From positions 9,875,501 through 9,939,500 of the forward strand of contig NC_083519.1 of the NCBI RefSeq assembly GCF_032362555.1: a stretch of 64,000 nt of DNA, written 5' to 3'. Origin of the DNA: Amyelois transitella. Taxonomy: Eukaryota; Arthropoda; Insecta; Lepidoptera; Pyralidae. The notes under the pieces were generated by a model. It was not told the DNA's origin, ran no database searches, and saw only the letters and a program-made list of their open reading frames with translations. Positions 38,301 to 44,300 of this stretch are shown piece after piece. The stretch's first letter is position 1. Every line of letters starts with the position of its first letter. A program made the position numbers and the translations under genes.

Positions 38301-41300
38301 ACTTTACTTGATCTTGATACTAGAAAAATAATTTATTTTTCAGACATTTATTTACATGTTTAGTTTTAATTTCTTTTTGTAGTATTGGTATGTATTAAAG
38401 CGTGTGACGTAGTTTTTGTGTACATATATATAGGTACAGTCTATGTTTAAAAGGATGCAGTTGTTTTAAATGTCACCCTGTATATTTATAATAAAGGAAC
38501 CTGTAGGTTCTTTATGTGGTCTAGGCGTGCACTAAGAGAGGTATTACCGAAATTCCCGCGGGAACGGGGATTACTATATAGTATGGTTGAGGAAGCATCT
38601 CGCAACGAGATTCTCGAACTAAGTTAACTCAATCTGTGTAATTTGTCCTGTATACACACATACATACAAACATAAAGTCACGCCTCTTTCCCGGAGGCGA
38701 AGGCAGAGACTACCTCTTTCCACTTGCCACGATCTCTGCATACTTCCTTCGCTTCATCCACATTCATAACTCTCTTCATGCAAACTCGGCGGTTTCGGAT
38801 ACTCTTGACCTGACCCTTTGCCAGGACGTCCTTAATTTGATCAAGATACGTTCGTCCTGAATATATAATTATATATTATATATCTAATATATTTAAACGA
38901 GCAATTCTTGTATATATATATAATCAGGATCTCGGAAACGGCTCCAACAATTTTCATGAAAGTTACAGATTAGGGGCTTTTCGGCTCAAGGAATCGATTT
39001 ATCGAGGTCCTAGGTTCGAGAAAAGCTCGGTTCCCAAGATAAATAAACATTTTAAAAACCGCGTTTTAAGAAACTATATCAGCGCCATCTCTGGTAGACT
39101 GAGCAAAGCTCGGTCAACCAGGTACTAACTATATTTATGTCTGTTGACCTACTCACCCAATCCTTGTGCGCCTCGCCCACACAAACCGGGTCTAAAGTGG
39201 GCAGGCTGTATATAGCTAGCTCGCAGGAATTCCTGGCACCCGTTGCTAACATCGTCCTGTAAAAAAAATTAGAAAAACTTGTAACAGGAGGGTACTCGTG
39301 TTCCTGTCTGTGTATATATATAAAAATATATATAAAGCCAACAGTCTCGCAAAGACTGAAATGCCACGTTCAGCTGTATGAATTACAGATAGAATTGAGA
39401 TTCAAATATTGACAGGTTGCAAGCCCATTGGTTGTTGTTTGTTGTTGGTGCCGTGTGGTTCCCGGCACCAACAGAAAAAAGAATAGGACCACTCCATCTC
39501 TCTCCCATGGATGTCGTAAAAGGCGACTAAGGGGCAGGCTTATAAACTTGGGATTCTTCTTTTAGGCGATGGGCTAGCAACCTGTCACTATTTTAACCTA
39601 AATTCTATCATTAACCCAAATAGCTGAACGTGGCCTATCAGTTTTTCCCAGACTGTTGGCTCTGTCTACCCCGCAAGGGATATAGACCTGATTATATGAT
39701 ATATGTGCTAGCCCATTGCTTACAAAAAGATGACAAGTTTATCAGCCTTTCCCTTAATCGCCTTTTACGAGATTTATGAGAAAGACACAGAATGGTCCTA
39801 TTCTTTAGAGTCGAGAATCTTTATTAATAAGTCTATTCATTAGTCGCTTTTTACGATATCCATGGGAGGGAGAAGAGTTTAAGTGGTCGTTTCTTTTTTT
39901 TTTGGTATCACTTGAAAAAATCGATATTCAAAGATTTAAGGCAATTTTGAAAAGATTTGTTAGAATGAGTCGTCAGGTTTTGGAGAGTTAGTGGTCGAAT
40001 TGGTACGGTGCCCGGTAAAAATGTATGTGGCGAAAAACGGCGCAGGTTCGAATCCCACCTCGGCCATGTACCAATGACTACTTCCAAAGTTATATTTTAT
40101 TAGTTTGAATACTAACTGACGCTCTTGCGATGACGGAAAACATCGCGAGGAAACCTGCAAAATCAGGTAATACCATTGATCCAATAAGGGTTCTCCTGCA
40201 AAAGGTTGCGGAGGTCAGACGGGAGTCGCTCCGTGTAAAAGCCTGACTTACCCAATCCAGGGTCCCTGGTCATAGGCACCCCGGGCTCCTGTCCAGAGTG
40301 GTGAGGATGCAACCGGAGCTACAGCTAGAAGGAAGGATAAGAGCGTAGTCCTGGAGGGGTTGATCTGCAGCGCGTGGATGCCGGTCTGGTGGTCGGCGCC
40401 GGCCCACAGCTGGAGGAGCCAGCAGGAGCATGAGAGCTGTGACACAGACCTGGAGGGGTTGATCTGCAGCGCGTGGATGCCGGTCTGGTGGTCGGCGCCG
40501 GCCCACAGCTGGAGGAGCCAGCAGGAGCATGAGAGCTGTGACACAGACCTGGAAGGGTTGATCTGCAGCGCGTGGATGCCGGTCTGGTGGTCGGCGCCGG
40601 CCCACAGCTGGAGGAGCCAGCAGGAGCATGAGAGCTGTGACACAGACCTGGAAGGGTTGATCTGCAGCGCGTGGATGCCGGTCTGGTGGTCGGCGCCGGC
40701 CCACAGCTGGAGGAGCCAGCAGGAGCATGAGAGCTGTGACACAGACCTGGAGGGGTTGATCTGCAGCGCGTGGATGCCGGTCTGGTGGTCGGCGCCGGCC
40801 CACAGCTGGAGGAGCCAGCAGGAGCATGAGAGCTGTGACACAGACCTGGAGGGGTTGATCTGCAGCGCGTGGATGCCGGTCTGGTGGTCGGCGCCGGCCC
40901 ACAGCTGGAGGAGCCAGCAGGAGCATGAGAGCTGTGACACAGACCTGGAGGGGTTGATCTGCAGCGCGTGGATGCCGGTCTGGTGGTCGGCGCCGGCCCA
41001 CAGCTGGAGGAGCCAGCAGGAGCATGAGAGCTGTGACACAGACCTGGAGGGGTTGATCTGCAGCGCGTGGATGCCGGTCTGGTGGTCGGCGCCGGCCCAC
41101 AGCTGGAGGAGCCAGCAGGAGCATGAGAGCTGTGACACAGACCTGGAGGGGTTGATCTGCAGCGCGTGGATGCCGGTCTGGTGGTCGGCGCCGGCCCACA
41201 GCTGGAGGAGCCAGCAGGAGCATGAGAGCTGTGACACAGACCTGGAGGGGTTGATCTGCAGCGCGTGGATGCCGGTCTGGTGGTCGGCGCCGGCCCACAG

Positions 41301-44300
41301 CTGGAGGAGCCAGCAGGAGCATGAGAGCTGTGACACAGACCTGGAGGGGTTGATCTGCAGCGCGTGGATGCCGGTCTGGTGGTCGGCGCCGGCCCACAGC
41401 TGGAGGAGCCAGCAGGAGCATGAGAGCTGTGACACAGACCTGGAGGGGTTGATCTGCAGCGCGTGGATGCCGGTCTGGTGGTCGGCGCCGGCCCACAGCT
41501 GGAGGAGCCAGCAGGAGCATGAGAGCTGTGACACAGACCTGGAAGGGTTGATCTGCAGCGCGTGGATGCCGGTCTGGTGGTCGGCGCCGGCCCACAGCTG
41601 GAGGAGCCAGCAGGAGCATGAGAGCTGTGACACAGACCTGGAGGGGTTGATCTGCAGCGCGTGGATGCCGGTCTGGTGGTCGGCGCCGGCCCACAGCTGG
41701 AGGAGCCAGCAGGAGCATGAGAGCTGTGACACAGACCTGGAGGGGTTGATCTGCAGCGCGTGGATGCCGGTCTGGTGGTCGGCGCCGGCCCACAGCTGGA
41801 GGAGCCAGCAGGAGCATGAGAGCTGTGACACAGACCTGGAGGGGTTGATCTGCAGCGCGTGGATGCCGGTCTGGTGGTCGGCGCCGGCCCACAGCTGGAG
41901 GAGCCAGCAGGAGCATGAGAGCTGTGACACAGACCTGGAGGGGTTGATCTGCAGCGCGTGGATGCCGGTCTGGTGGTCGGCGCCGGCCCACAGCTGGAGG
42001 AGCCAGCAGGAGCATGAGAGCTGTGACACAGACCTGGAGGGGTTGATCTGCAGCGCGTGGATGCCGGTCTGGTGGTCGGCGCCGGCCCACAGCTGGAGGA
42101 GCCAGCAGGAGCATGAGAGCTGTGACACAGACCTGGAGGGGTTGATCTGCAGCGCGTGGATGCCGGTCTGGTGGTCGGCGCCGGCCCACAGCTGGAGGAG
42201 CCAGCAGGAGCATGAGAGCTGTGACACAGACCTGGAGGGGTTGATCTGCAGCGCGTGGATGCCGGTCTGGTGGTCGGCGCCGGCCCACAGCTGGAGGAGC
42301 CAGCAGGAGCATGAGAGCTGTGACACAGACCTGGAGGGGTTGATCTGCAGCGCGTGGATGCCGGTCTGGTGGTCGGCGCCGGCCCACAGCTGGAGGAGCC
42401 AGCAGGAGCATGAGAGCTGTGACACAGACCTGGAGGGGTTGATCTGCAGCGCGTGGATGCCGGTCTGGTGGTCGGCGCCGGCCCACAGCTGGAGGAGCCA
42501 GCAGGAGCATGAGAGCTGTGACACAGACCTGGAGGGGTTGATCTGCAGCGCGTGGATGCCGGTCTGGTGGTCGGCGCCGGCCCACAGCTGGAGGAGCCAG
42601 CAGGAGCATGAGAGCTGTGACACAGACCTGGAGGGGTTGATCTGCAGCGCGTGGATGCCGGTCTGGTGGTCGGCGCCGGCCCACAGCTGGAGGAGCCAGC
42701 AGGAGCATGAGAGCTGTGACACAGACCTGGAGGGGTTGATCTGCAGCGCGTGGATGCCGGTCTGGTGGTCGGCGCCGGCCCACAGCTGGAGGAGCCAGCA
42801 GGAGCATGAGAGCTGTGACACAGACCTGGAGGGGTTGATCTGCAGCGCGTGGATGCCGGTCTGGTGGTCGGCGCCGGCCCAGGCGCCGCGCGGCCGCAGC
42901 GTGGGGATGCGGTCCAGCGCGCGCGACCGCACGTCGTACACCAACAGCTGCGGGGGGGGGGGAGATAATACACAGTGGAATAAAATGCTTTCAAAGAAAC
43001 GAAAAAATATTATTATTTTACTGACATTTTTTGAAACAGATGGAAAAGTAAATAAAAATAAAAGAAGGAAAAACAGGCTTGCCACTTCAAAGAGATAAGA
43101 AAATCAATTATACACGCAGCAAAACGGGTGGACGGAGTGTCGCTTCGAAAATAGTGAAGCATCGTAATGTGGCGGCGTTGTACGCGTGTGTGAGTGGCGG
43201 AAAACTTGCCACTTCGTGATCTATGACGTAATGGCGGCCGACTGTTACACTATTGGTAAAAATGTGTGCCAGAGGCGTGTATATAGTGGACCGTATATAC
43301 TATTGGTGCTTCATTTTTCTGCATAGTAAAACTCCGTCCACCTTTTTTCTACGTACGGCCATGTTCAGCTGTTTCCTATCCCCACTAATATTTACAAATG
43401 CAAAAGTACCTAAGTTTATTTACTTGTTACCTCTATCATATTATCTTCTGAATTAACATTTGTGTAATACTAGCTGTGCCCGCGACTTCGTCCGCGTCAA
43501 ATAATTATTTTGGGGATCATTGAAGCCCTCAAGGATAAATAATTTTCACCCTTTTTTTTCAAATTTTCCGTTATTTCTTTGCTCCTTATAGTTGCAGCGT
43601 GACGTTATATAGCCTAAAGCCTTCCTCGATAAATGGTCTTTTCAACACAAAAAGAATTTTTCAATTCGAACCACTAGTTCCTGAGATTAGCTCGTTCAAA
43701 CAAACTCTTCAGCTTTATAATATTAGTATAGATCATGTACTCGTATATGAATGAATGAGCGAGTTGAGATGTGCGCTCACCTTATTGCACTTAGTACCAA
43801 ACACGACCTGCCTATCGGACAGCCATTGCGAACAGAAAACCTTGTTCATGTTGCCGAGGTTGACCGGCGTCTCGCGAAACATGTCGTGGGTGAGCATGTG
43901 GCGAGTGGCGTACGACGGGTCCACCGATCTGGCCTGAAAGTGTAGAGAATTATGTTAATACATACTTATACATTTTTAAAAAATAGTAATTTATTGTCAT
44001 GTGTTGGCAACACTGATTTTGGCTTTTTGACGTTTGAGTTAGCCGCGTTTTTAGTAAGTTAACAATACATACATACGTACAAGTCTTGATACCTTGTGGG
44101 TTAGACTGAGCCAACAGTCTGATACGCTCAGCTATTTGGCTTAATGATAAGAATTGAGATTCAAATAGTGACAGGTTGCCAGCCCATCGCCTAAAAAAAG
44201 GATCCTGAGTTGTAAGCCTCTCCCTTAGTCGCATTTTACGACATCCATGGGTAAGAGATGGAGTGGTGCTATTCTTTTTTGTTCTGGTGCTGGGAACCAC

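Follow-up and report, generated by a model that had tools for sequence, protein, structure and literature searches.

What becomes of a gene whose 5' splice site has been copied many times in series, exon end and intron-side sequence together? The question is raised by DCAF12, presumably the substrate receptor of a CUL4 ubiquitin ligase, in the moth Amyelois transitella (assembly GCF_032362555.1, contig NC_083519.1, positions 9,875,501 to 9,939,500 of the forward strand; this 64,000-nt stretch is the window, and all coordinates below are counted from its first base). Here a 99-bp segment made of the end of a coding exon, a splice donor and the adjoining intron-side sequence is repeated 25 times in tandem. 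We consider it probable, judging from the sequence, that the array represents a minisatellite, recently expanded or homogenised, that straddles a 5' splice site, and that it would normally be removed as intron through use of its first donor.

Tandem Repeats Finder places the repeat at 40350-42881, with a period of 99, 25.6 copies, 99% matches, 0% indels and a score of 5043, and its head-to-tail arrangement of 99-bp units is that of a minisatellite (unit roughly 10-100 bp). When split along the minus strand it yields 25 units, every one of them 99 bp long and 22 of them identical, while units 13, 22, and 23 have in common one C>T at unit position 93, which falls on the third position of a proline codon and is synonymous in the DCAF12 frame. 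The mean pairwise difference between units amounts to 0.22 per unit, i.e., 0.22% per site, and the shared variant fits, on thin evidence, a copying of units in blocks. At 67%, the G+C content of the unit is far above the 38% of the window. A search of the whole assembly (327 Mb in 33 contigs) with the unit, in which only the best candidates were scored, returned 25 full-length matches and one of 57 bp, all 26 at this locus, and the final 57 bp of the terminal copy are identical to those of the native copy. As RNA, two array units folded no better than shuffled sequences (z 0.49; 135 of 200 shuffles did as well or better), and a scan of 38500-44000 against Rfam gave no match at the gathering score. 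Since 22 identical units out of 25 are the pattern hardest to assemble, a short duplication may have been expanded by misassembly, or the copy number may be wrong; however, an assembly of 327 Mb in 33 contigs suggests long reads, which would span 2.5 kb, the variant units are internal to the array and the window contains no N, all of which makes an artefact highly improbable.

Read in the direction of the gene, an exon part of 56 nt that ends in CCTCCAG is followed by a 40-nt spacer, CTG, and the next exon copy. The 56 bp are those with which the native exon closes (42881-42826), and the remaining 43 bp are the spacer with CTG included. The spacer opens with GTCTGT, carrying a candidate native intron start (GTCTGTGTCACAGCTCTC), and closes with the pyrimidine-rich CTCCTCCAG, each copy ending in an acceptor-like CAG. 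The donor CAG/GTCTGT (the slash marks the junction) was found in 25 of 25 units, as was CCAG/GT, i.e., the AG/GT within a duplicated segment by which tandem-duplication introns are recognised. Searched at up to 3 mismatches, the spacer has 25 matches in the genome, all 25 inside the array; it is thus a sequence of single origin, which would fit the native intron start. The same matches gave no support to the spacer as a member of a repeat family. A pyrimidine-rich, spacer-like match on the plus strand near 17322-17350 (24 of 29 bases, above all 20 shuffles in a search of the window) sits in a GC-richer stretch and is taken, without proof, as chance. The motif CCTCCAG also occurs twice per unit, once at the exon end before GTCTGTG and once at the spacer end before CTGTGGG, the latter being the same junction without GT; the second occurrence may be chance or a trace of the unit's formation.

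The host gene lies on the minus strand at 32389-44641, in a nine-exon model obtained by tblastn comparison with the human DCAF12 protein (Table 1). The repeated boundary belongs to the third exon of this model, called exon 4 in the initial annotation; the first coding exon is outside the model. With the first donor, the frame is intact for 410 residues over the nine exons, GT...AG is present at 8 of 8 model introns, and residues 69-409 of the product align with Pfam PF23760 (E value 2.3e-89; 300.5 bits, the cut-off being 27; profile positions 3-380 of 381), so that the gene is, by its sequence, an otherwise intact DCAF12. All 34 genome matches fall at this locus, and no second copy or retrocopy that would record the splicing was reported among them. 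Most of what the initial annotation had read here was confirmed: the host gene, the 25-copy array, the 56 bp of exon plus 43 bp of intron-side sequence, and the near identity of the units. Its interval, 40351..42947, starts at the first base of the native exon and stops where the last exon copy ends. Its "start of intron 4" holds as intron-side sequence, the native intron start being the probable reading of a spacer that has no match outside the array.

Three further repeats or elements accompany DCAF12. An 89-bp tandem duplication of 1.8 copies directly follows the stop codon (32211-32373, minus strand), another intron holds a 210-bp TATG microsatellite of 52.5 copies (35462-35671), and the last model intron holds a 395-amino-acid open frame of mariner-type transposase (32633-33817, minus strand; PF01359, E value 1e-18, with HTH_48).

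Table 1 Features of the DCAF12 locus, in window coordinates
Feature	Position	Strand	Basis
99-bp tandem array, 25 full units and 57 bp	40350..42881	-	Tandem Repeats Finder range, unit-by-unit split, genome search
First repeat unit; its first base is the T in the GT of the first donor	42726..42824	-	Unit split
Unit 13, with C>T at unit position 93	41538..41636	-	Unit split
Units 22 and 23, same C>T in both	40548..40745	-	Unit split
First DCAF12 exon of the model	44485..44641	-	Gene model
Preceding DCAF12 exon	43781..43933	-	Gene model
Native DCAF12 exon (exon 4 of the initial annotation), 122 nt long, its final 56 nt forming the exon portion of the repeat unit	42826..42947	-	Gene model
Next DCAF12 exon (exon 5 of the initial annotation)	39157..39256	-	Gene model
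Last five DCAF12 exons: 37709-37574, 36612-36455, 35870-35714, 34821-34724, 32541-32389 (stop codon)	32389..37709	-	Gene model
First donor GT (CAG/GTCTGT), giving the normal 122-nt exon	42824..42825	-	Donor scan, frame analysis
25th and last array donor GT	40448..40449	-	Exon-copy-end analysis
GA replacing GT after the 26th (last) exon copy	40349..40350	-	Exon-copy-end analysis
tRNA-derived short interspersed element (SINE), antisense to DCAF12	39983..40335	+	Genome matches, aligned ends, tRNA-like head by eye
GT of TGG/GTAAGT within the SINE	40250..40251	-	Gene-strand donor scan

From this anatomy we infer an order of events. The 56 bp of exon end and 43 bp of what is probably intron start would have been tandemly duplicated, and the duplicated segment would then have been multiplied to 25 units by unequal exchange. 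The resulting transcript offers 25 identical CAG/GTCTGT donors. Exon definition favours an exon of 122 nt over exons of 221 to 2498 nt, and because of this the donor nearest to the exon's own acceptor would most likely be used, giving the 122-nt exon and letting the array leave as the initial 2.5 kb of intron sequence. The array could persist because its unit amounts to 33 codons and is open in frame: use of a later donor would still yield DCAF12 with n x 33 additional residues, and such frame neutrality would make splicing errors cheap. Indeed, when each of the 26 exon-copy ends was joined to the next exon and translated, an uninterrupted protein resulted every time (410 to 1235 residues, starting with the first exon of the model), and GT follows at 25 of the 26 ends. 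The openness of the unit in all three sense frames is unremarkable, as 12% of shuffled units share it, and one given frame is open in 53% of them. The array is most likely mostly silent, with rare in-frame length variants. A more productive use of the same property would be that several of the 25 donors are active and generate graded DCAF12 proteins with 0 to 24 extra 33-residue modules (25 via a SINE donor described below), their distribution tuned by allele length, which we think doubtful.

At its outer edge the array has no donor, i.e., there are 26 exon-end copies but 25 donors, the 26th copy being followed by GACTACG. Donor redundancy would make the loss of this GT harmless, which may be why the gene survives with a last copy that lacks it. 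Fifteen bases from this copy lies the 3' end of a SINE of ca. 350 bp, with at least 41 matches in the genome including the focal copy; the others are 77-82% identical, 40 of 4995 candidates having been scored. The focal copy gave no sign of a target-site duplication (346 of 500 shuffles did as well). Of 30 SINE loci fetched, one (L010) is the focal copy and eight of the 29 others were dropped as truncated at one end; a clear duplication was present in only four of the 21 tested (L012, L015, L021, and L027; at most 4 of 500 shuffles), which makes its absence here weak evidence that the array edge overwrote the duplication of the SINE. The missing duplication also lends weak support to another origin of the edge, in which a rearrangement next to the SINE, and not a point mutation, removed the last GT.

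On the gene strand, the SINE itself contains a GTAAGT donor in a phase that fits the next exon; from the native exon across every unit up to this donor no stop codon interrupts the frame, and one stands just past it. Use of the SINE donor would create a 2696-nt exon and, with the first exon of the model as starting point, a protein of 1268 residues. We scored donors by their pairing energy with the 5' end of U1. Of the 7056 GTs present in the window, that of the array unit (-6.4 kcal/mol) belongs to the top 3.1%, a comparison in which its 25 copies are themselves counted, and the SINE donor pairs more strongly still (-9.8 kcal/mol). It is therefore conceivable that the array is exonised by late array donors or by GTAAGT, and that DCAF12 carries many 33-residue repeats at NPSR/T. 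In the DCAF12 frame the array is open throughout, and the only differences between units (three of 25) are synonymous in that frame. Yet an exon of 2.5-2.7 kb is unlikely under exon definition when a 122-nt version is available upstream, and slightly more than half of shuffled units are open in a given frame anyway; three synonymous copies, perhaps of one change, are no evidence of selection. The insertion point corresponds to approximately residues 152/153 of the human protein, and a structural account places a seven-bladed WD40 propeller at residues 79-453 of human DCAF12 (PMC11044963). Because the insertion would fall inside the propeller, large insertions could disturb the fold, and we regard exonisation as unlikely.

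Several observations weigh against removal of the array from its first donor. Of the eight donors in the model only one is weaker than that of the array, the other seven scoring between -4.4 and -9.9 kcal/mol, and two GTs deeper in the intron pair better, namely that of the SINE at 40251 and another at 40058 (-8.9 kcal/mol). The genome has retained no single copy of the spacer by which its probable origin as native intron start could be judged, all 25 matches at up to 3 mismatches lying within the array. Beyond the SINE, no remnant of a last spacer was found (30 of 100 shuffles scored as well). Lastly, the spacer CAG could draw in pseudo-exons that shift the frame. With 11 of 14 pyrimidines upstream, it is as good as 5.4% of the window's 3345 YAG sites, and the real acceptors of the model have 7 to 14 of 14. 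A pseudo-exon from this CAG to the donor measures 59 nt; one or two such pieces shift the frame and lead to an early stop. The units could thus act as decoys, sending a fraction of the transcripts to degradation as frameshifted mRNA, with copy number tuning DCAF12 output. However, an intron of 40 nt would be very short, so that joining would be restricted to units further on, and three pieces restore the frame; we give this reading little credence.

A different use of the same repeats would be a new intron by the tandem-duplication (AGGT) route, in which the GT of a unit is joined to a later exon-end AG, so that entire units drop out and an additional piece of exon is retained, made up of the last copy plus 99 nt as far as the SINE donor. 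AG/GT is present in each of the 25 units, the native exon plus the 99-nt piece is in frame (443 residues), and cases with few copies are described (PMC4974935, PMC3629103). Nevertheless, the pyrimidine tract of the exon-end AG is mediocre (8 of 14, as good as 40% of the 3345 YAG sites) and direct joining to the next normal exon is simpler, leaving this as a very remote prospect. Splicing from the first donor, with the array lost as intron, accommodates the locus best in our view. The initial annotation had given each unit its own donor, which is true of the 25 units and fails for the 26th exon-end copy (GACTAC in place of GTCTGT); its splice-donor array stands as described, with no mention of the lost donor, of the SINE donor behind it, of the acceptor-like CAG at the spacer end or of the unit's 33 codons, by which every exon-copy end stays in frame. 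It had further spoken of a coding minisatellite (by its open frame, a potentially coding one) and of a cell that must remove 25 pseudo-exons as one intron or translate them. There are indeed 25 equivalent donors to cope with, but the two-way choice is incomplete, because any exon-copy end keeps the frame and 59-nt pseudo-exons shift it unless three are joined.

Is such an arrangement without parallel? The minisatellite of the human 6-16 gene (IFI6/G1P3) reportedly provides multiple splice donor sites in an interferon-induced transcript, as the title of Turri et al. (1995) has it. Going by that title, the two cases are alike in that minisatellite units supply several donors in one transcript; unlike the 6-16 unit, reportedly of about 12 nt, that of DCAF12 has 99 bp, combines 56 bp of protein-coding exon with sequence from the intron side and is neutral to the frame. 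Tandem duplication of an AGGT-type segment as a way of gaining introns (the Rogers model) is reported for ATP2A1 and the fission-yeast genes SPOG_01682 and SOCG_00815. In fission yeast the gained introns are made of 24-nt tandem repeats with some differences between copies; according to the yeast paper the motif is AGGC, and one of the two introns needs further study (PMC4974935, PMC3629103). These cases share with ours tandem copies that each carry AG/GT or a similar proto-splice site. However, they create an intron inside an exon, whereas the DCAF12 array multiplies an existing boundary in 25 near-identical 99-bp units; an intron between exons 4 and 5 is needed with or without the array. In Drosophila, 5 of 31 novel intron positions are probably tandem duplications of coding sequence with a proto-splice site, and there too, in insect genes, a duplicated AG/GT leaves more than one position open to splicing, perhaps with some intron retention as a by-product, but a long homogeneous array is not mentioned in the part of that paper available (PMC2891723). 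Among titles and abstract beginnings of the open-licence literature, nothing resembling the locus turned up for comparable splice-site arrays, for minisatellites with a splice site in Lepidoptera or for DCAF12 in Lepidoptera. Since precedents exist, from the 6-16 minisatellite to tandem-duplication introns, the DCAF12 array would seem an extreme case of a familiar type.

The choice among identical donors is usually studied in designed minigenes. Here, 25 donors of the same sequence stand in series, in nearly equal local context and with the frame kept at each, and they could serve as a natural test of position alone. An exon-intron boundary that turns into a minisatellite, and whose outermost donor then becomes dispensable, also suggests a possible route to intron growth or to a shift of the boundary.

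Elsewhere in the window, a 910-amino-acid open frame with a reverse transcriptase domain (4190-6919, minus strand; PF00078, E value 2.1e-34) marks an element resembling long interspersed elements. On the plus strand, open frames at 19748-21619 resemble exons of a nitrilase/omega-amidase (NIT2-like), a candidate recognised by eye, and another at 25178-25819 matches PDCD7 (PF16021, E value 3.6e-9). A tRNA-His (GTG) is predicted at 62178-62251 (plus strand) by ARAGORN with bacterial settings, and the 631-amino-acid open frame at 52657-54549 (plus strand) matches DDE_Tnp_1_7 (PF13843, E value 1.6e-68), which we take to be a piggyBac-type transposase.

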